From positions 1 through 61,183 of IMG/VR virus record IMGVR_UViG_3300023179_000113: a stretch of 61,183 bases of DNA. One strand, 5' to 3'. The notes below the pieces were generated by a model that saw only the letters and a list, made by a program, of their open reading frames with translations, searched no databases and was not told the DNA's origin. The translations under genes and the position numbers were made by a program. Positions 5,537 through 21,573 of this stretch are shown here, in pieces (positions within the stretch are counted from its first letter, which is position 1; each line of letters begins with the position of its first letter). Origin of the DNA: a virus.

Positions 5537-6045
5537 ACCCATTCTGGACGCCTTTGAGGCATACGAAGATAGTTATCCTTCACCCAAGGTTTAGATGCGA
5601 TGTATCTTTTGTAAGCAGTAAAAGTGTCAATGCTATCGTCAAGTTTATATTCATCAGGCATAGCACGAACAAATGGAGTCACTTTATCAATCTTACCTTT
5701 AGGAAAGATGTAATAGGCATCTACAAGAGTTTTGTAGCACGAATGAGTTTTATTATACCGCAAAGTATATTCATCACACAAGTTCATTCCCCACTTGATT
5801 AACCAATAGGCATTATCAATAGTCTTTGCTGCCCATTGAGTACAAGGGTGATTACGGAAGGCACCCTTCTCTGTCTTGTAGGGGGTTCCATCGGTCTTGG
5901 GAAGAGTTCCATATCCGTGCCCCCATTTTTCTGATGCCACGATGGAGAGCATTTGGCAGCACTCTAAGGGCATCTTAACTACGTGTTTATCTGGAAGACA
6001 AGTGGCACTCTCGGCAGGAAATGGAGATGTGACGAAGATATTCAT
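5533..6045 (-). CDS. Conserved T4-like phage protein, possibly pyrimidine-dimer-glycosylase-like
   Basis: 170 residues. N-terminus 'MNIFVTSPFPAESATCLPDKHVVKMPLECCQML', then 'FRNHPCTQWAAKTIDNAYWL', 'NLCDEYTLRY' and a C-terminal 'YIASKPWVKDNYLRMPQRRPEW'. This pattern (a 'D-K/R-H/R..K' helix, then an 'NHP..W' helix) reminds me of the Pyr_excise-type family (PF03013), usually labelled pyrimidine dimer DNA glycosylase; this is a weak, remembered resemblance. It is unlike T4 DenV in sequence. It sits between clamp gp45 (ATGA overlap) and the clamp loader, which suits a DNA repair role, but function is unproven. Confidence 0.6.
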   Translation of the reverse strand: MNIFVTSPFPAESATCLPDKHVVKMPLECCQMLSIVASEKWGHGYGTLPKTDGTPYKTEKGAFRNHPCTQWAAKTIDNAYWLIKWGMNLCDEYTLRYNKTHSCYKTLVDAYYIFPKGKIDKVTPFVRAMPDEYKLDDSIDTFTAYKRYIASKPWVKDNYLRMPQRRPEWV

Positions 6046-6707
6046 TCAAAAGTAGAATCAGGCTCCATAGCAATATAATACTTCAAATCTCTGTCGGTGC
6101 TTGTAAATCGTGATAAAAGTTTTTGTGAAATGACAACCTCATAGGCACCAGGAAGAATCTTGATATTCTCTACTTTAAAGTTAAATGTAAAGACACTATC
6201 GGTTTCTCCAACTACTATAGAAAAATTGTTTGACGTGTCATTCTTTTTATCTCTTACTACTAGTTTGATCACACCTGCATCACCAACAGCAGAAAGGTCG
6301 GGAAGTTGATAAATCGCAGATGCCTTGAGTAACTTATCTAACTGTTGAGTATTCAACTCAAAGCACACATCCTCACTCGGAAGAGTAATTTCTTTATCTG
6401 GTGGAATCACGATTACACTTGGATCAGCAAAGAAATACTTAGATCGCATTTTACCTTCACGAATCACCACATAACCATCATTATCAAAATCCAATTCGGC
6501 ATTTTGGTGAAGATTAAGTCCATTTAGGAATTGGTTTAGATCGTAAATACCAAAGTCCTTTGGAAACTCTTCGGTAATCTCTGCTTCGGCAAGAATATTC
6601 TTCATCACAGAAATAGTGCGAAGTTTGTTTCCTTGCTTGAACAAAATTGATTGATTAATACCAGAAAAATTCTTCAGCAATGACAATGTTTTATCAGAAA
6701 GTTTCAT
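6042..6707 (-). CDS. 45: Sliding clamp gp45
   Basis: About 221 residues from ATG 6707 (MKLSDKTLSLLKNFSGINQSILF), which lines up with the T4 gp45 start 'MKLSKDTTALLKNFATINSGIM'. Further upstream ATGs (6728 MKLKNQ and 6761) would lengthen it and overlap the preceding gene more. gp45 is the trimeric DNA clamp for gp43 and, with gp55, the mobile activator of T4-type late promoters. 'FGIYDLNQFLNGLNL' and 'GAYEVVISQKLLSRF' are typical. Its 5' end lies in the 3' end of the DUF3310 gene and its stop overlaps the next start (ATGA). No strong ribosome site is visible, so coupling is likely. Confidence 0.93.
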   Translation of the reverse strand: MKLSDKTLSLLKNFSGINQSILFKQGNKLRTISVMKNILAEAEITEEFPKDFGIYDLNQFLNGLNLHQNAELDFDNDGYVVIREGKMRSKYFFADPSVIVIPPDKEITLPSEDVCFELNTQQLDKLLKASAIYQLPDLSAVGDAGVIKLVVRDKKNDTSNNFSIVVGETDSVFTFNFKVENIKILPGAYEVVISQKLLSRFTSTDRDLKYYIAMEPDSTFE

Positions 6708-7263
6708 AGTTTGATTTTTGAGTTTCATTATTAAATCCGGCAAAATGATATAAAAGAACACCGTAATGTATAATCTTCAGAGCATCAAGTTTTGACATTC
6801 CATCCTTCTTACCAAAACGAGAAGAATACTTAATGAGATTATCGCGGCAGAAGGGAACTCCATCGTCAATCGCATCAATCATATCCAGAACCTGAACCTT
6901 TGACTTATCAGAGGCATAGTGTCCACGGTAAGTTCCCTTAATATATTCTTCTACTACTTTCAGAGTCTTTCCTTCACCAAACTTCCAGAAATGATCTGAA
7001 TTTAGTGATGGTTTTACCTCATAAGAAGTGGGAATAGTGTGGGAATTTAAAGAAAGAACATCTGGAGATGCATATGGATTTCCAGTTATACTAAAACCAT
7101 CATCTTCCCAGTAGTTATCATAGTTAAAGGAAATGTGGTCTTCTCCCATACCACCAAGAAGATGACTTCCAGTAACAGATCCAGTAACAGAAGATCCAGC
7201 TGCTACTGCCGAATAACCTTCGGGAATAAGACTTTCATAATCGGTTTCAAAATTTTCAGTCAT
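6694..7263 (-). CDS. DUF3310-domain protein (T7 gp1.7-type family)
   Basis: 189 residues in two parts. Residues 1 to about 105 are a low-similarity, Ser/Gly/Asp-rich region. Residues about 110-180 ('GHYASDKSKVQVLDMIDAIDDGVPF', 'IKYSSRFGKKDGMSKLDALKIIHYG') match the DUF3310 pattern 'HY...EVIDVI....F..GNAIKYL.R.GKKDG..DL.KA..Y'. Phage T7 gp1.7, a nucleotide kinase, carries this domain, so a nucleotide-metabolism role is possible; catalysis is not shown here. It is the first gene of the gp45 unit, behind a sigma-70 promoter (7300-7328), and overlaps gp45 by 14 bases. Confidence 0.75.
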   Translation of the reverse strand: MTENFETDYESLIPEGYSAVAAGSSVTGSVTGSHLLGGMGEDHISFNYDNYWEDDGFSITGNPYASPDVLSLNSHTIPTSYEVKPSLNSDHFWKFGEGKTLKVVEEYIKGTYRGHYASDKSKVQVLDMIDAIDDGVPFCRDNLIKYSSRFGKKDGMSKLDALKIIHYGVLLYHFAGFNNETQKSNYETF

Positions 7264-7299: not shown

Positions 7300-7328
7300 A
7301 TTATATCAGTTTGTTTTCATTTTGGCAA
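7300..7328 (-). promoter_or_regulatory. Sigma-70-type promoter for the gp45 replication unit
   Basis: Minus strand TTGCCA (7328-7323), 17 bases, TATAAT (7305-7300): one mismatch in the -35 box. The -35 lies inside the end of the cobS-like gene. The start would fall near 7293, about 30 bases before the ATG at 7263. Confidence 0.7.
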
Positions 7329-8460
7329 CATAATCACGAAGAGCTTGCCGTTCTGCCAGAATTTCTTCATCGACTTCATCAACAGGCATCTTGAAATCCA
7401 CATCAATCTTATCATAAAGTTCCAAGAATGCCTGTTTGGTTTCATCATCAAAACGATTTATACAAACCTGTATTGCCTTTGCTTTATCACCAAAAATGCT
7501 GTAGGCACGAATGATGTGAACGAGACGGCGGGTGCTGATGATTTCCTCAATACCACCATCATAGAAGGTCTTACGGATTACATCACCCCAATCAACAAGT
7601 CTCTTACAGAAATCACGATCCTCAAGACCAAGATCCAAAGAAATACCCTCTAAAATCTTTTGCTCAACAGCAGGAGCAGGATAAGATTGTTCAAAGGTCA
7701 CAGGAAATCTTTCTAAGAATGCTTCGTTGAGCACATTAGTTCCGATAAACCTACCATCCTCAGAACCTTTACCTTTGGTATTTGCAGTTGCAAAAACATT
7801 AAATCCAACAGAGGGTTTTACAAACTTACCAATCTTTTTCAGAAAGACACCTTTACCTTCCAATACAGATTGAAGACAGAGGATTTTATTGGAGGCAAGA
7901 TCAATCTCATCCAAAAGTAAAATAGCACCACGTTCAAGTGCTTCAATCACAGGGCCATTATGCCAGACAGTTGCACCGTCCACAAGACGAAAACCACCAA
8001 TCAGATCATCTTCATCAGTTTCAATCGTAATATTTACACGAATCAATTCACGTCCAGTCTGAGCACAAGCTTGCTCCACAGAGAACGTTTTACCATTACC
8101 CGATAGACCCGTAATAAACGTTGGGTAAAAAATACGGGACTGAATAATTTTTTTAATATCGTTGAAGTTACCAAACTTGACGAAAGTATCATCTTTATCA
8201 GGAATAAGATTTTGCTCCAAAGCAGGAAGAGCAGCAGGAGAAGAAAAACTACGTTCTATTTCTTGAACCTTTTCTTGCGTCACTTCCAAGTTCCACTTAC
8301 CACGAGAGGTTTTATATTTCTCAAGATTTTTTGTAACGGTTTGATAAGCACTTCCATTACTAGCACACCAACCACGAATGTCGGCACCAGTAATTTCCGA
8401 TCCAAAAAGTGTTTTGAGAGAAGAAACGATATAATCGGGAGTCATTTTGAGACGGAGCAT
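7306..8460 (-). CDS. cobS: CobS/MoxR-type AAA+ ATPase
   Basis: 384 residues. An N-terminal region of about 70 residues ('IRGWCASNGSAYQTVTKNLEKY', possibly nucleic-acid- or protein-binding) precedes a MoxR-class AAA+ module: Walker A GLSGNGKT (118-125), Walker B LLLDEID (181-187), sensor 'NVFATANTKG', 'FLERFP' arginine-finger area near 250 and the CobS-like C-terminal helical part. Cyanophages almost always carry this gene and it is usually named cobS after the ATPase of cobaltochelatase. The partner here is a VWA protein with a zinc-peptidase motif (9391-11562); no CobN-type chelatase gene lies in the window. The family call is secure; the substrate is not. Confidence 0.9.
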   Translation of the reverse strand: MLRLKMTPDYIVSSLKTLFGSEITGADIRGWCASNGSAYQTVTKNLEKYKTSRGKWNLEVTQEKVQEIERSFSSPAALPALEQNLIPDKDDTFVKFGNFNDIKKIIQSRIFYPTFITGLSGNGKTFSVEQACAQTGRELIRVNITIETDEDDLIGGFRLVDGATVWHNGPVIEALERGAILLLDEIDLASNKILCLQSVLEGKGVFLKKIGKFVKPSVGFNVFATANTKGKGSEDGRFIGTNVLNEAFLERFPVTFEQSYPAPAVEQKILEGISLDLGLEDRDFCKRLVDWGDVIRKTFYDGGIEEIISTRRLVHIIRAYSIFGDKAKAIQVCINRFDDETKQAFLELYDKIDVDFKMPVDEVDEEILAERQALRDYVAKMKTN

Positions 8461-8487
8461 AGTGAGTAGTTTGTTTCAACTTTAGTC

Positions 8488-8496
8488 ATTATAACA
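8488..8496 (-). promoter_or_regulatory. Extended -10 promoter candidate upstream of cobS-like gene
   Basis: Minus strand TGTTATAAT (8496-8488) is a perfect extended -10. No convincing -35 hexamer at 16-18 bases. It lies 28 bases before the ATG at 8460. Confidence 0.5.
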
Positions 8497-8519
8497 GCAA
8501 TCAGAGTCTCAAAACCAAC

Positions 8520-8714
8520 CTACTGGACGGTTTCTAAACTGTCTCTGATTTCACTCAAACGATTTAGACTTACTAAATGTCCTTTATATCCAGGATAATA
8601 TTTTTCTACAAGAGCACCAATACCCATCGCAGTAATGGCACTGTCACACTTCAAATAAACTCTTTTATTCTTGTGATCTATTGCACAGGGCATTCCCCAA
8701 ATTTCCTTTTTCAT
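8520..8714 (-). CDS. Small conserved-type protein, unknown function
   Basis: 64 residues: 'MKKEIWGMPCAIDHKNKRVYLKCDSA' then a hydrophobic helix 'ITAMGIGALVEKYYPGY' and a charged end. Not a signal peptide or clear membrane segment. Its ATG overlaps the stop of the 49-codon upstream gene (ATGA), giving a three-gene chain with 8711-8860 and 8860-9372. I recognise no domain. Confidence 0.65.
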   Translation of the reverse strand: MKKEIWGMPCAIDHKNKRVYLKCDSAITAMGIGALVEKYYPGYKGHLVSLNRLSEIRDSLETVQ

Positions 8715-8860
8715 TTTAATTGATATTCAGGATACTTTTCTCTAACCTTAGATCTAAACCTTCCATTAAATGATGGGGGGTTTAGTTCTCTTTTTTGAGT
8801 GATCACTTTAGCATTATGATCAATAATCAAAAGTTTATCAATACTGTTAGGTTTTTTCAT
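8711..8860 (-). CDS. 49-residue small protein
   Basis: Frame MKKPNSIDKLLIIDHNAKVI ending in VREKYPEYQLK. Start overlaps the upstream stop (TAATG) and stop overlaps the downstream start (ATGA), so it fits exactly into the chain. Basic, no recognised family. Confidence 0.6.
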   Translation of the reverse strand: MKKPNSIDKLLIIDHNAKVITQKRELNPPSFNGRFRSKVREKYPEYQLK

Positions 8861-9372
8861 TAGGGTTCAATTGTAAATGTTTTGTTTTTAACTTTAGTAT
8901 CAAACTCACCAGTTCTACCTGGTTTCATACCTCCTATACTAACATTCTTTCCCTTGCCTGGCCAAGATGTTTTAGAAGTTCCTTTTAGAGTTGAACTTCC
9001 TCCTGGTTTGCGTTGAATCAAAACAGAATCTTGATCGTATTTTTTACCTAACTTTTCTATTGCTTTTTTAAATTTTCTTTTACCTTTCTTTCCAGGAGTA
9101 ATAATGTGTGATTTTTCTCCTACTTTTTTTTCTTCTGGAGTGCCCGGATTTTCTGTATATCTACCAGCAACTTTTGTAGGTCCTGGAAGACCGGCACCCC
9201 TAATATCTTTTTCAAGTTGTTTTGAACGTGCTTTATTTTCTGCCTTTGATTTGTCTCCTCTTTGAGCAGACATAATCGCCATTCCACCTTTCTTTGACTT
9301 ACTCATCACACGAGTAAGAGAAGTCTCTTGAATAGAGTAGCATTCTAGCACAAATTCTTGAAAAGTCTTCAT
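8860..9372 (-). CDS. Basic protein with capsid-targeting-like N-terminus (candidate internal head protein)
   Basis: 170 residues, strongly basic (Lys/Gly-rich between residues 25 and 160). The first residues, MKTFQEFVLECYSIQE, closely match the capsid-targeting sequence of T4 internal proteins, which begin MKTYQEFIAEA. IQE at residues 14-16 fits the (I/L)-x-E rule of the gp21 prohead protease. In T4 such proteins enter the prohead core, are clipped, and are injected with the DNA. The C-terminal part ('KYDQDSVLIQRKPG' to 'RTGEFDTKVKNKTFTIEP') looks like a folded domain I cannot name. A TCTAAATA box lies 16 bases upstream. Internal-protein status is inference from the N-terminus, charge and promoter. 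Confidence 0.6.
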   Translation of the reverse strand: MKTFQEFVLECYSIQETSLTRVMSKSKKGGMAIMSAQRGDKSKAENKARSKQLEKDIRGAGLPGPTKVAGRYTENPGTPEEKKVGEKSHIITPGKKGKRKFKKAIEKLGKKYDQDSVLIQRKPGGSSTLKGTSKTSWPGKGKNVSIGGMKPGRTGEFDTKVKNKTFTIEP

Positions 9373-9387
9373 TTTAATCTTTTTAGG

Positions 9388-9395
9388 TATTTAGA
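9388..9395 (-). promoter_or_regulatory. Late-promoter-like octamer TCTAAATA
   Basis: Minus strand TCTAAATA overlaps the stop of the VWA gene and lies 16 bases before the ATG at 9372. It differs from the T4 late consensus TATAAATA at one base. The same variant precedes the tail-tube-like gene (18166-18173). Confidence 0.4.
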
Positions 9396-11562
9396 CAACA
9401 AGTTCCATAAACTGTCCTAGAACTTTCTTATTCAATTTTTTGATCTTAAGACTTTTTACAAAGGCACTTTTAATCTGTGACTTTGTGGCATCTTCGGCAA
9501 CTTCAAATTCAGAATCTTGTGAGAGAGTGGATGCAGAAAGTCCAAAGTAGGCATCATAACTTGATTCTAAAATATTCAGACTCCGATTCTTCTTCCAATC
9601 AGATAAAATTTTATTATATTGAGGAGATAATTTGTTGTAATAAAGACTCACAAAATTTGATGTATCACGATTCTGAAGCACACGAATACCGATCATATTG
9701 ACTGTCGGAAACTTATCCTTAAGATTTGATATCAAAACTTCAGTAAATTTATGATATTCATACTCAAACTTGTAAGTCGTTCCGATCTTACGATCACGAA
9801 GAAAAGTTTGTCCAGGAGAAATACCACGAACACCAATATAAGGTTCAGATCCACGTTTGACTTCAATATGATAAGGAAGACAATTTGCCTCACCATCAGT
9901 CAGAACTACACACTGAACTTTTTGAAGTTTATTTTCTCTCTGAAAATTGGGAAGAATTTGGTGTAGGGCAATCAGTGCCTCATTCAGTGGAGTGCTGGAA
10001 AGATATAATCGAGTTGGAGCAACATATCTACATCCACACCCATATGGATTACGAAGAGCAATAGTCAGTCTCCAAATATTGAGCATCTGATGCTCCAGAG
10101 TTTTCATATTCACTTTACTTGTAAGAAGATTCAATAAAGAAAAATCATCGGCAACATAAATCAATCCTTCTCGTTTTTCATAATGTGAAGAATAAACTTC
10201 TTGTGACGTTTTTGGACTTCTCCATTCATTTGTAAAGGCATAAACCTCAAAAGGAATTGAGACTTTTTTACAAAACCAGATTAGATTGAAAAGTTGCTTA
10301 CAGGTGTCCTGAATAACTTCATTCATCGACCCACTCCAATCAAGAATAAAAATCAACCCGTGATTTTTACCATCAGGAATCACATTTATTTTCTTAAATA
10401 AATCCTCATTATACTTGTAGGTATGAAGACGTGCAGTATCAAGAACTCCTGTGCGAGCAGTTGATGTTCTGGCATAAGAATCTGCTGCCTTACGACACTC
10501 AAATTCCTTTACGAGATAATTGACTTCTTTTTGAGCAGAAGTCTTAAATTGCTTATATGACCTATCTACCTCTTCATATAAATCAAAGTTATGAGTTGTA
10601 TCATTATTAGCATCAATATATTTTTTTTGTCTTTCGAAATTTTCATCAATATATTGATGAATCTCTGAATTTTTGGCAATTATAGTTTCTAGATTGAGAT
10701 GTGGAAGTTCAACATAAACATTATCTCGGTTATCACTACTTACAAGACTCTCAATTTTTTCACGAAGAGCATCGGCAGTGCGAACTTCAGGTTCTTGTGA
10801 AGAAAGATCTGGTATTGTTTGATTTCCACTAGAATTTCCGGAAGATTCTTCTGGTTGCTGTAATTGTGGGGATTCTTGTTGATCGTTCTCACTTTCTTCG
10901 GTTTCTCCCATCTGTTCACCAGAAGAGGAATTACCTTGTTGTTCGGAATCGTGAGAATCTAGATTAGCAACCTTTTGTTGTTTCTGTTGTTCTTCCTTAC
11001 AATACTCATAAAGTTTCTCTGCGGCAATAATCACATCTGTAAAAGTTTCACAGGAATCAATACACTCAATAATTTCTTTCTCTTTGGAATTAAAATTTAG
11101 AGGAGAAAGAAAATTACCAACCTTAAAGTAAAGGTTTGTTTTATCAGCAAGATTTAAGGTTTCTAAATCTTCGTCAGCAATCTGAAAGAAGTCTTCATCA
11201 TTTAATTCTTTATATCCATTATAAAAAGTCTTTGCAAGTCCTGCATACTTACGTTTCATTAATTTTTCAATGCGGGCATCTTCTACAATATTCACAAACT
11301 GTTGAGGAATTGTAGTGCTTTCAAACCAGTCATCATCGGGAGTAAAGAGGGCATGTCCAACTTCATGTCCTACAAGCAAATCATATACGGTATTACTTGC
11401 TTTATCCCACAGAGGCAGAGTCAAAACACGAGTATGAACATTAAAACAAGCAGTCGCAACTTTCTTGTGCTCAACCACAAGATCTTCGGTAGCAAGCAGT
11501 TTTGCAAGTTGAGACTTGATTTCGTGACTAACTGGCATGAGTTTTGTTTTGTATACACTCAT
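9391..11562 (-). CDS. HExxH zinc-peptidase plus VWA protein, partner of CobS-like ATPase
   Basis: 723 residues with three parts. The N-terminal part has a zinc metallopeptidase motif HEVGH (66-70, in DLLVGHEVGHALF) and a downstream Glu (VEDARIEK, about 93-100) as possible third ligand. Residues about 190-265 are a Gln/Ser/Glu-rich linker. The C-terminal part is a von Willebrand A domain with MIDAS DWSGSM (408-413) and 'VVLTDGEAN'. CobT of cobaltochelatase also has an acidic linker and a C-terminal VWA, and MoxR ATPases act with VWA partners. A pair with the AAA+ gene at 7306-8460 is therefore likely, perhaps remodelling or processing a protein. Cyanophage homologues are often just called peptidase. 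It is not clearly a cobalamin gene. Confidence 0.85.
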   Translation of the reverse strand: MSVYKTKLMPVSHEIKSQLAKLLATEDLVVEHKKVATACFNVHTRVLTLPLWDKASNTVYDLLVGHEVGHALFTPDDDWFESTTIPQQFVNIVEDARIEKLMKRKYAGLAKTFYNGYKELNDEDFFQIADEDLETLNLADKTNLYFKVGNFLSPLNFNSKEKEIIECIDSCETFTDVIIAAEKLYEYCKEEQQKQQKVANLDSHDSEQQGNSSSGEQMGETEESENDQQESPQLQQPEESSGNSSGNQTIPDLSSQEPEVRTADALREKIESLVSSDNRDNVYVELPHLNLETIIAKNSEIHQYIDENFERQKKYIDANNDTTHNFDLYEEVDRSYKQFKTSAQKEVNYLVKEFECRKAADSYARTSTARTGVLDTARLHTYKYNEDLFKKINVIPDGKNHGLIFILDWSGSMNEVIQDTCKQLFNLIWFCKKVSIPFEVYAFTNEWRSPKTSQEVYSSHYEKREGLIYVADDFSLLNLLTSKVNMKTLEHQMLNIWRLTIALRNPYGCGCRYVAPTRLYLSSTPLNEALIALHQILPNFQRENKLQKVQCVVLTDGEANCLPYHIEVKRGSEPYIGVRGISPGQTFLRDRKIGTTYKFEYEYHKFTEVLISNLKDKFPTVNMIGIRVLQNRDTSNFVSLYYNKLSPQYNKILSDWKKNRSLNILESSYDAYFGLSASTLSQDSEFEVAEDATKSQIKSAFVKSLKIKKLNKKVLGQFMELVV

Positions 11563-11620: not shown

Positions 11621-13333
11621 TTATGATCCGATCCGACTAAATCCTTTTACTTTTTCAAATTTTATAACATTATCAAACTTATCATCTAAACCAGTTTTAT
11701 GAGAGATTACAAATATATTAGCATCCTTTATTGTATATTTAATAATCTTAAGAAATTCTTCTGTTCCAAATCCATCTAAAGAACTATCAAATACTTCATC
11801 TAATATCAGAAGATTTGTATTTACAGAATTTTTAAATCCAGCAACTTCTCTCCAAGTAAAAAGAAGTGCCAAATCTATTCTCATCTTTTCACCCTCACTA
11901 AAGGAAGCATAAGAAAAATCTTCGTGAATTGGTGACTGAACTGTCTCATTAAACTCTTCATCAAGAGTAAAATTAATATAAAAGTCCATCATTTGTAAAT
12001 ACCGATTTACCTGCTGATTTATCAGGGGAAGATATTTCTTAATGATTTTAGACTTAACACCACCATCCTTCAGTAATCCATATGCAAAATCATAATAGTT
12101 AATGGAGTCTTTTTTAACTGCCAATTCATCATAGGTTTTCTGAAGAGTTTCTCTGAAAGACTCTAGTTTTTCGTGTTCAGTATTTTTATTTTTAAGTTGG
12201 TTGGTAAGTGTTTGAATTTCTGATTCAAAGTCTCTGATTTGTCTTTGACATCCAGAGATTTTAGTATTGTTTTGAGAAACTTCATGCGTGAGTTTTGTAA
12301 TCTCCTTGGAAAGAATATTAAATTGACGCTCTCTTTCTTCTTCTGATTTGATAGTTTCCTCAAGTTCTTGATAACCCGATTGTAACTCCTTTGCTTTATT
12401 TTGAGCGTCTGTAATTCTATGTAGTCTAAATGTCTCATCAATCTCTTGAGTACAAGTAGGGCATACCGTATTTTCAGTAAAAAACTTGTGCTCTGTGGTA
12501 ATCGTAAGAACCTTTTGTGAGATTTTACCTTTGAGATTTCCAAGTTTACGAAGTTTATCTGCGGCACCTGTGACTTCTTCTTGCTCTTTGATATACTTAA
12601 AAATACTTTCTTCAAGTGAAGAATTTTCTCTCATATAAATGCCAACTTCAGTATCTAAATTGGCAATCTTTTTTTGATTGTCATTTATCTTGGCATTTCC
12701 ACGATTTTCCAACTCCTCAATAAAGTTTCTTTGCATTTCAACCTTATCAAAGAGAGATTCTTTTTTGAGTTCTAAAGTCTTTACTTCTTCACGAATCTGA
12801 CGAATTTTTTCTTTAATTACTGTATTCATAGAAGAAAAAATCTTTATGTCTAAAAGATCTTCAATCACTTCTCTTCTGTGAGCCGCAGGAAGTTGCATAA
12901 AAGGAACAAAAGTACTGCTACCCAAAATTACAATTTGAGTAAAGGACTTATAGTTCATTTTAAGAATTGTTTGTTCTAACCACTTCTGCTGATCGACAGA
13001 TGCGGATGCCTGATCCAAAACTTCACCATTTCGATAAATTTCAAAAATATTTGGTTTGATTCCACGAACAACCTTCCACTCGGTAGTTCCAATAGTAAAC
13101 TCAACTTCTACAATACAGTCCTTTTCATTTACGGTATTGATGAGTTGTGGTTTATTAATTTTCCGAAATGGTCTTCCAAATAAAGAAAAAGTAAGGGCAT
13201 CTAAAATTGTACTTTTACCAGCGCCATTTGTACCGACAATCAAATTAGTCGAATTTAGAGTAAAATCTATTTCCGTGAAATGCTGTCCTGTAGATAAAAA
13301 ATTCTTCCATTTTATAGTTTTGAATAATATCAT
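11621..13333 (-). CDS. 46: Recombination endonuclease subunit gp46 (Rad50-like)
   Basis: 570-residue SMC/Rad50-type ATPase (T4: 560). Walker A GTNGAGKST (34-42), a long coiled-coil from about 170 to 420 interrupted by the zinc-hook CPTC near residue 290, signature 'YASFSEGEKMRIDLALL' and Walker B/D-loop 'LLILDEVFDSSLD', then 'FVISHK'. It works with gp47 to resect DNA ends for recombination-dependent replication and host DNA degradation. The order 55-47-(DUF3110)-46 follows T4 apart from the inserted small gene. Confidence 0.97.
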   Translation of the reverse strand: MILFKTIKWKNFLSTGQHFTEIDFTLNSTNLIVGTNGAGKSTILDALTFSLFGRPFRKINKPQLINTVNEKDCIVEVEFTIGTTEWKVVRGIKPNIFEIYRNGEVLDQASASVDQQKWLEQTILKMNYKSFTQIVILGSSTFVPFMQLPAAHRREVIEDLLDIKIFSSMNTVIKEKIRQIREEVKTLELKKESLFDKVEMQRNFIEELENRGNAKINDNQKKIANLDTEVGIYMRENSSLEESIFKYIKEQEEVTGAADKLRKLGNLKGKISQKVLTITTEHKFFTENTVCPTCTQEIDETFRLHRITDAQNKAKELQSGYQELEETIKSEEERERQFNILSKEITKLTHEVSQNNTKISGCQRQIRDFESEIQTLTNQLKNKNTEHEKLESFRETLQKTYDELAVKKDSINYYDFAYGLLKDGGVKSKIIKKYLPLINQQVNRYLQMMDFYINFTLDEEFNETVQSPIHEDFSYASFSEGEKMRIDLALLFTWREVAGFKNSVNTNLLILDEVFDSSLDGFGTEEFLKIIKYTIKDANIFVISHKTGLDDKFDNVIKFEKVKGFSRIGS

Positions 13334-13594: not shown

Positions 13595-14629
13595 TTAGAC
13601 TAACTCACAGGCTTCCTGATATATTTCTTTAAACATTTTTTGAATTATTTTTTTGTCTAGATTTATTTCTGATTCTTCAATATATCTGTTCAGAACAGAA
13701 AGAGTATCTTCTGATTCAAATGCCTCAAAATTTTCATTTTCTTCAATTTGAAAGTTTTCAACAATTTTGAGTTCTGCCACATTTGAAGTATAAAGTTTAT
13801 CAATAAATTTTTCAAACTTTTTAGTATTTGTTTTTTTACGAACAATCACTTTTACAATTTTATTTTCATATTCACGAGTATCAAATGTCTGATAGTTTGT
13901 ATCTTCATAGTGAATAATATAATAAATTCGATAAGGATTATTTACAGGAGTATGTTCTAGTGTTTCGGTATCAAAAATATGAAATCCACGAGTATCATTT
14001 ACATCATTCCAATACATTTCATAAGGATTTCCCAAATAAAAAACGACACCATTAGTAGAACGAGTATGATAATGCCCAGAAAATACTTTTGTAAACCCAT
14101 CAAAAACTATAGAATCCATACCATCATCCATCGTATGTCCACGATAGGCTTCAAATCCATTCAATTCCAAATGTCCCATCGCAACCTTACATCCACTTTT
14201 TTTGATAAGACGTAAAGTTTTTTCTTCGTTATCGGCACATATCCAAGGAATCAAAAGAGTATTTAAATTCCCAATTTTAATTACCTCAGGATCACTATAA
14301 GTTTTGATATTAGAGTAATTTTGAAGTAGAAGAGATGGAGAATTTACATTATTCGTGTTCTTATAGTATGCATCGTGATTTCCCACTAACATATGAACAT
14401 TATATTTTGAAAGAGGATCTAAAACAACTCTTTTTGTCCATTCTAAACTTTGATAATCAATTGACTTGCGACTATCAAAAGCATCTCCCATATGAATAAC
14501 AGTTGTAATCCCGTGCTGTTCCAGTGTCGGGAAAAAAATGTTTTTATAAAATGTCTCAAAATAATCCTGAAAAAGTTTAGAACCTTTTCGGCAACCATAA
14601 TGAGTGTCAGTGATGATTGCGACTTTCAT
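13595..14629 (-). CDS. 47: Recombination endonuclease subunit gp47 (Mre11-like)
   Basis: 344-residue calcineurin-like metallophosphoesterase (T4: 339). Metal-binding motifs: 'AIITDTHYG' (D8, H10), 'VIHMGDAFDSR', 'MLVGNHDAYY', 'AMGHLEL' and 'FSGHYHTRS'. It is the nuclease subunit of the gp46/gp47 complex. The start is 1 base from the gp55 stop. Confidence 0.97.
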   Translation of the reverse strand: MKVAIITDTHYGCRKGSKLFQDYFETFYKNIFFPTLEQHGITTVIHMGDAFDSRKSIDYQSLEWTKRVVLDPLSKYNVHMLVGNHDAYYKNTNNVNSPSLLLQNYSNIKTYSDPEVIKIGNLNTLLIPWICADNEEKTLRLIKKSGCKVAMGHLELNGFEAYRGHTMDDGMDSIVFDGFTKVFSGHYHTRSTNGVVFYLGNPYEMYWNDVNDTRGFHIFDTETLEHTPVNNPYRIYYIIHYEDTNYQTFDTREYENKIVKVIVRKKTNTKKFEKFIDKLYTSNVAELKIVENFQIEENENFEAFESEDTLSVLNRYIEESEINLDKKIIQKMFKEIYQEACELV

Positions 14630-20922: not shown

Positions 20923-21573
20923 TTACAACGAATTTAGAAAATCGTTGAAAATCTTCAATCTATTTTCTTCTAGTTGTTTTTGTGAAACTAATGTATTTAT
21001 TCTTTTATAAGTTTTCTTTGCAAATTGCTCACGAAGCACTCCACCGTCCCATACCCATTCTTTACCTTCCATAATCCCCTGAACAAAAGCATCAGGTGCA
21101 GATGGATCTGCTACGATATCAGCGGCAGTTGCGAGCATAAAATCTTCACCAACTTCACTATAACCATTTTGAGTTGGTCTTAGTGAACCAATACCACGAG
21201 AAGAAACACCGAGCATCACACCTTCTTTGAGAAGTGCTTCGGCAATCTTACCCATAGGAGTGGAAAGAATTTGTGCTTTACCAATAAAATTATTACCCTC
21301 ACGATAAAGTTCTGTAATTTTATGAGAAACTCTATCCAGATTGACTGTTGGACCATCTGGATGTCCGAGTTCACCAAGAGCACGACCTTTATTTACATAT
21401 TGTTCTGTATATCTTTTGACCTCACGTTCCATCACTGGCATACGATAAATTCTTTTATTCCGATTTGGTTGTTCGGTCTGAAGAAATGGTCCTTTGATAT
21501 AGAGAGTTTTTTTACCGTTTCTTTCTTCGGTAATTACTTCTACTGATTCAATCTCTTCGGTAATAAGTTTCAT
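20923..21573 (-). CDS. 21: Prohead core protease gp21
   Basis: 216 residues (T4: 212). Serine-type prohead protease: His71 in 'ALGELGHPDGP', Ser124/Ser125 in 'GVMLGVSSRGIGSL', and 'ADIVADPSAPDAFV' with the conserved Asp-Pro-Ser. It clips gp23, the scaffold and internal proteins after (I/L)-x-E. GGAG lies in the end of the preceding gene, and stop and start overlap as TGATG. Confidence 0.96.
   Translation of the reverse strand: MKLITEEIESVEVITEERNGKKTLYIKGPFLQTEQPNRNKRIYRMPVMEREVKRYTEQYVNKGRALGELGHPDGPTVNLDRVSHKITELYREGNNFIGKAQILSTPMGKIAEALLKEGVMLGVSSRGIGSLRPTQNGYSEVGEDFMLATAADIVADPSAPDAFVQGIMEGKEWVWDGGVLREQFAKKTYKRINTLVSQKQLEENRLKIFNDFLNSL

Follow-up and report, generated by a model that had tools for sequence, protein, structure and literature searches.

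The cyanophage 'cobS' gene and its zincin-VWA partner: a probable MoxR-type machine encoded in the replication module

What does the gene annotated as cobS do in T4-like cyanophages? The question is raised by positions 7306 to 11562 of IMG/VR virus record IMGVR_UViG_3300023179_000113, analysed here over its whole stretch of 61,183 nucleotides (the window), which is part of the genome of a T4-like cyanophage; among named phages, the freshwater Synechococcus phage S-SRM01 comes closest to it. The locus encodes a 384-residue 'CobS' and, upstream, a 723-residue protein annotated as a peptidase. In the literature, cobS figures among the core genes of cyanophages, with cobalamin synthesis as its role (PMC3037559), and one survey, in which it also serves as a community marker, labels it 'Vitamin B12 synthesis' (PMC9983427); the paper on phage P-HM2 makes no mention of the pair genes. 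Two papers from 2021 read such pairs in opposite ways: Iyer et al. (PMC7824862) found MoxR proteins together with von Willebrand factor A (VWA) proteins carrying an N-terminal metallopeptidase domain in jumbo phages and proposed a role in virion assembly with processing, whereas Liu et al. (PMC8651126) concluded that in cyanophages CobT had been 'mistakenly annotated as a peptidase'. The sequence tests described below favour the machine over the chelatase: it is highly probable that the pair forms a MoxR/zincin-VWA machine, and likely that the two genes encode a single ATP-driven remodelling and zinc-protease machine, whose targets may belong to the replication module. The computed support comes from intact catalytic residues in both domains, near-obligate pairing, replication context, the absence of CobN and the split from the chelatase. 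The phage 'cobS', often counted as vitamin metabolism of ocean viruses, is most probably mislabelled as a cobalamin gene.

The 723-residue protein (9391..11562; like the other window genes discussed here, on the minus strand) belongs to phrog_459 (E 2e-260), and searches of Pfam and NCBIfam assigned it to no family. Its AlphaFold2 model, built on 78 homologues (mean predicted local distance difference test [pLDDT] 80.4, predicted template modelling score [pTM] 0.73), begins with an alpha/beta domain in which helix 57-73 bears the HEVGH zincin motif (aa 66-70, 11353..11367) and helix 87-105 bears the NIVEDARIE segment (aa 91-99, 11266..11292). There follow a disordered acidic, Q/N/S-rich linker (aa 204-258, 10789..10953; 24% D/E, 47% Q/N/S, no K/R; pLDDT ∼30), a helical connector, the VWA domain (aa 398-681, 9520..10371), and a C-terminal helix. 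The VWA domain contains the metal ion-dependent adhesion site (MIDAS) motif DWSGSM (aa 408-413, 10324..10341) and, in the LTDG segment (9892..9903), the distal MIDAS aspartate D556. Residues H66, E67, H70, N91, E94, and D95 of the N-terminal domain, as well as D408, S410, S412, and D556 of the MIDAS, are identical in 110 of 110 close homologues and in 78 of 78 homologues with 28-70% identity (R97 is also invariant in the latter set), so neither motif can be put down to chance. Among ten phage proteins with 14-31% identity to the reference, the invariant columns are those of HExxH, D-x-SGS, and DG, plus M1, P42, and G400; in homologue L324 a text search missed the strict D-x-SGS pattern, but its D, S, and S nonetheless align. 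HEVGH and the downstream E94, a candidate third zinc ligand of the gluzincin type, are both invariant among the aligned homologues. For the cyanophage branch, the present data favour annotation as a predicted peptidase. The VWA domain filled the match list of a fold search against the PDB, leaving the zincin fold barely probed; the best VIA-align matches were the substrate-bound MIDAS domain of Midasin (8ql1, Z 15.9) and the VWA domain of NorQ-bound NorD (9qh6, Z 15.3), with other VWA domains at ∼12.

The 384-residue protein (7306..8460; phrog_249, E 4e-137) has an AAA_5-type core (E 4e-16) and a match to CbbQ_C (E 5e-5), and by sequence it is closest to Midasin, CobS, NorQ, and CbbQ. Both the Walker A motif GLSGNGKT (8086..8109; G118, G121, G123, K124, and T125) and the Walker B motif LLLDE (7906..7920) are invariant (59/59). 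The fold matches to CbbQ2 (Z 10.6), NorQ (Z 10.4), and Midasin count only as supportive, because the AlphaFold model is poor (pLDDT 61.5); core, Walker motifs, and CbbQ/NorQ-like fold together identify a MoxR-class AAA+ ATPase. The sequence-only reading of this locus, which had called the 'cobS' product a MoxR-class ATPase and had placed an HEVGH motif, an acidic linker, and a VWA domain whose MIDAS is intact in one upstream protein, is thus borne out in both coordinates and motifs. The ATPase also carries an extra N-terminal helical domain of ∼60 residues (aa 1-62, 8275..8460), predicted with confidence over most of its length (pLDDT 83-92), which has no Pfam match even at E 10 and, judged by eye from the sequence, looks like a winged helix; it possibly binds DNA or a partner protein.

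Both phage proteins are distant homologues of the cobaltochelatase subunits CobS and CobT (PDB 9uka, 9ujv), which likewise pair a MoxR-class ATPase with a protein consisting of an N-terminal domain, an acidic linker, and a MIDAS VWA domain, the VWA and ATPase domains being related to those of the phage. However, the phage pair stays below the family cut-offs. The ATPase scores 65.2 bits with the CobS equivalog TIGR01650, whose cut-off is 558.55, and the CobT_C VWA profile (PF11775) has no match at 0.01 in the 723-residue protein; it was not found in the window record, HTVC008M, S-SRM01, or P-SSM4 and does match true CobT as well as the corresponding protein of Cyrano, an SSU5-type phage. The CobT N-terminal domain PF06213 gives the window protein 15.7 bits over 19 residues, below the 26.1 cut-off; homology of the N-terminal domains of CobT and the cyanophage family is not claimed here, as a profile comparison aligned just 28 columns (E 0.006). 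In cellular CobT the zincin motif is gone: HExxH is missing from all 80 Hyphomicrobiales CobT proteins chosen using the sequence of the solved chelatase subunit, where RGLGDSMALR or close variants stand in its place, and from 20 of 20 CobT proteins of CobN-less Alphaproteobacteria. The downstream EQARVE, an echo of the phage EDARIE, is kept. Phylogenetic trees place the T4-like pair outside the chelatase-subunit branch (support 100/99 for VWA and 95/90 for AAA), and the pairs nearest to the chelatase, those of Roseobacter phage CRP-810 and a cobavirus, both retain the motif. This suggests that the chelatase was derived from a protease, in trees whose root is unknown and many of whose branches are long.

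Nor is the chelatase partner encoded alongside. CobN (PF02514) was not found in the window or in 12 whole phage records, in searches that detected the positive controls, which extends to these whole records the earlier observation that there is no CobN here. Cellular CobT is itself often found without CobN. Among 289 alphaproteobacterial genomes counted (set G001-G291), 219 have a CobT_C match and only 115 have any CobN match, so that at least 104, some of them possibly incomplete, carry CobT without CobN, as does the Caulobacter control. Since such genomes are too numerous for incomplete assemblies alone, cellular cobST may have a B12-independent role besides chelation, which bears on how these genes are annotated in Alphaproteobacteria that keep CobT without CobN.

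The two phage genes are, by comparison, nearly inseparable. In 50,697 phage records, the peptidase occurs in 463 and a near-full-length cobS in 460 (totals that were not matched record by record), with identical counts for the two genes in records of Synechococcus (365), 'Cyanophage' (61), and Prochlorococcus (24) phages. Both genes, an ATPase and a MIDAS-VWA gene together on one strand, are present in 138 of the 160 loci collected first and in 75 of 89 more divergent ones. Of the 22 one-gene loci in the first collection, 15 belong to close relatives whose missing partner would fall past a sequence edge less than 1.5 kb away, and 7 belong to distant phages, with the partner too divergent for the search in 5 and none in 2. 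The latter are Staphylococcus kayvirus SAM2 and Acinetobacter phage Herod, in whose records no zincin-VWA protein was found; their lone ATPases, at 25-26% identity over 52-59% of the query, are distant relatives and do not qualify as cobS without a peptidase. In the IMG/VR loci of both collections, every absence has a sequence edge less than 1.5 kb away, with the exception of locus L323. This locus, the only one of the 89 with room for a partner and none in the neighbourhood, was likewise dropped from the unpaired loci, its cobS being present 28 kb away. The common occurrence of cobS without the peptidase-VWA gene, which the sequence-only reading had named as a refutation, was therefore not encountered, and its preference for a MoxR and peptidase-VWA machine over a cobalamin gene is upheld by scores short of the CobS/CobT cut-offs, the retained HExxH, and the absence of CobN from the records searched.

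In T4-like phages, the genes follow the order gp46-peptidase-(variable genes)-cobS-gp45. The minus strand of the window reads, in the direction of transcription, gp55 (late sigma factor), gp47 (SbcD-like; 13595..14629; phrog_100, E 5e-117), an 85-residue open reading frame (ORF), gp46 (SbcC-like recombination nuclease subunit; 11621..13333; phrog_77, E 7e-189), the peptidase gene, a 170-residue S-adenosylmethionine (SAM)-lyase-family gene, a 64-residue ORF, 'cobS', a DUF3310 protein gene, and gp45 (sliding clamp; 6042..6725; phrog_223, E 9e-90). Placement among replication and recombination genes recurs in some nine unrelated lineages of phages and plasmids: near DNA polymerase, UvsX, and primase-helicase genes in DLP6; near primase, helicase or ligase, and DNA polymerase III genes in SSU5/Cyrano, nickie, BUCTxx99, and Rhizobium phages; near primase, helicase, and polymerase genes in ICP2 and a cobavirus; and near endonuclease V and integrase genes in CRP-810. 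The context is less clear in a Gordonia phage (dUTPase, with an endolysin at the edge of the stretch) and in an Acinetobacter phage-like plasmid (integrase, sigma factor). A related pair is found on conjugative plasmids in AAA-DUF3150-VWA clusters (pMAQU02, pW6G, pAZI09), which sit beside RecT, exonuclease, ssb, and toprim genes and encode a zincin-VWA protein with HExxH..EDIRIE and a MIDAS; these clusters differ in being very divergent and in having an extra DUF3150 gene (DUF3150 and zincin-VWA genes at L333 2284-6734, L334 1675-6947, and L335 3713-6767), and an AAA ATPase is annotated in two of the three, directly upstream in L333 and L334. None of the lineages read has an annotated virion gene less than 6 kb from the pair, many of the neighbours being hypothetical. 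One syntenic relative infects Pelagibacter, and more distant pairs come from phages of Escherichia coli and Vibrio cholerae, hosts that are not known to synthesize B12 aerobically.

Expression timing was approached through the T4-type late motif NATAAATA, counted within 100 bp upstream of genes. In P-SSM4, 10 of 19 virion genes have it 25-86 bp upstream, compared with 1 of 22 early/middle genes. Sites in the window that look like T4-type late promoters lie 25-45 bp upstream of ten minus-strand genes between 15661 and 60940, from uvsW onward and including gp22 and the portal gene, nearly all of them in the virion block; the motif precedes no window gene from gp47 to gp45. Upstream of the pair, sets of 106 and 111 loci yielded one occurrence each, where ∼2.4 would be expected. 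This lack of the motif is an indirect sign that the pair is expressed early to middle and has no dedicated role in virion maturation.

These observations can be assembled into a putative mechanism, in which complex formation, zinc binding, proteolysis, timing, and target are all predicted. The 'CobS' ATPase would be the motor, presumably a hexameric ring, and the 723-residue protein its co-chaperone, whose VWA/MIDAS would dock on the ring and recruit the substrate, as in NorQ-NorD and Midasin. The latter (Midasin/Rea1) likewise joins an AAA+ ring to a substrate-gripping MIDAS domain and matches both phage proteins, but is a single giant eukaryotic ribosome-assembly protein free of a peptidase. 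The ring would thread or pull the client brought by the MIDAS-VWA arm, and the N-terminal zincin domain would cut or clamp it as presented; the coupling of ring and VWA is modelled on the solved NorQ-NorD complexes, and the protease step is read from conserved residues alone. The machine would be active early to middle in infection and would insert no cobalt into corrin. Its targets could be proteins of the phage replication/recombination module or DNA-bound host proteins, an assignment that we hold at slightly less than even chances.

Several points weigh against this reconstruction. Zinc binding, proteolysis, and the complex are predicted and the substrate is putative; position in the replication module and a missing late motif are indirect evidence on timing, and about half of the virion genes also lack NATAAATA. 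In addition, three paired CobT-like proteins of mobile elements have lost the zinc histidines, with SEISK, REVST, and QEVAK replacing HExxH; they belong to Pseudomonas phage nickie, Stenotrophomonas phage BUCTxx99, and an Acinetobacter phage-like plasmid (L336 4753-6837, L337 4858-6843, and L340 4918-6840). The machine can therefore work without proteolysis, which is not universal in the wider family. Remodelling is thus probably the common function, with cleavage retained by some clades, apparently including the cyanophages. A tentative generalization, on the doubtful side, is that an ATP-driven zinc-protease class common to unrelated phages and plasmids serves their replication/recombination modules, for example by stripping proteins off DNA or remodelling the replisome, and that chelatase CobS/CobT is a relative with a lost protease site. 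If so, the 'cobS' auxiliary metabolic gene of T4-like cyanophages would not be metabolic.

Of the alternatives, the one that survives best, although unlikely, is a machine for virion assembly or maturation, in which the pair would remodel, and the zincin cleave, structural proteins late in infection. It has been proposed in print for the same architecture, with the MoxR-vWA proteins of Acidianus two-tailed virus as a precedent (PMC7824862), and there is a weak fold match to ORF892 of that virus (E 9e-4). The group 2.2 pair of that paper shares with the present one the two-gene architecture, a MoxR gene beside a vWA gene with an N-terminal metallopeptidase domain (the likeness to ASV44728/ASV44729 is one of architecture), and the predicted chaperone and co-chaperone roles; the paper does not include cyanophage cobS, whereas the present pair belongs to the core genes of T4-like cyanophages. 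Its location in a replication module, with virion genes absent from the surrounding 6 kb in the lineages read, the lack of the late motif, the head protease gp21 already encoded in the window (20923-21573), and the related pair on conjugative plasmids, which make no virions, all speak against this role, and virion maturation, one of the uses suggested from sequence alone, does not hold up as likely. The architecture had already been described for jumbo phages, and the replication-module placement is new; recurring over unrelated mobile elements, it suggests a target class absent from the proposals of both 2021 papers.

Less probable is a chaperone for metalloenzyme activation, similar to NorQ-NorD and CbbQ-CbbO, that would open a phage or host enzyme for metal insertion or inhibitor removal, the zincin site handling metal rather than cutting peptides. 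NorQ/CbbQ and NorD are among the closest folds and also combine a MoxR ring with a VWA partner, and cyanophages encode many metalloenzymes, such as 2-oxoglutarate-Fe(II) oxygenases. However, no consistently linked metalloenzyme was seen across the lineages, and HExxH with the invariant downstream ED is the signature of a catalytic zincin. The clients of the known systems are nitric oxide reductase and Rubisco, and NorD and CbbO are not known to have such a zincin domain. A protease for counter-defence or host takeover, which would degrade defence or regulatory proteins of the host, is slightly more doubtful still: it would suit the broad spread over phages, phage-plasmids, and conjugative plasmids, but such genes are usually located in variable islands, whereas this pair lies between gp46 and gp45 and, far from being patchy, is an invariant core feature of one large phage family. 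Finally, true CobS/CobT subunits that hijack host CobN and raise cobalamin (Sullivan 2010; Liu 2021) are very improbable, for although the pair is distantly homologous to the chelatase and a cyanobacterial host could supply CobN, given the CobN-family protein found in Synechococcus elongatus, the family tests fail, the zincin motif lost in all 100 cellular CobT proteins checked is kept, the phages lack cobN, cellular CobT so often does without it, and the relatives infect the hosts named above.

The genes for the ATPase and the zincin-VWA protein are not direct neighbours in the window, being separated by the 64-residue ORF (8520..8714) and the SAM-lyase-family gene (8860..9372; PF23780, E 9e-14). 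The 170-residue product of the latter starts with MKTFQEFVLEC, and most of its same-place homologues in other cyanophages have MKTFQ-like starts, which presumably resemble the capsid-targeting sequence of T4 internal proteins; the product may be a SAM-degrading protein that is packaged and injected with the DNA.

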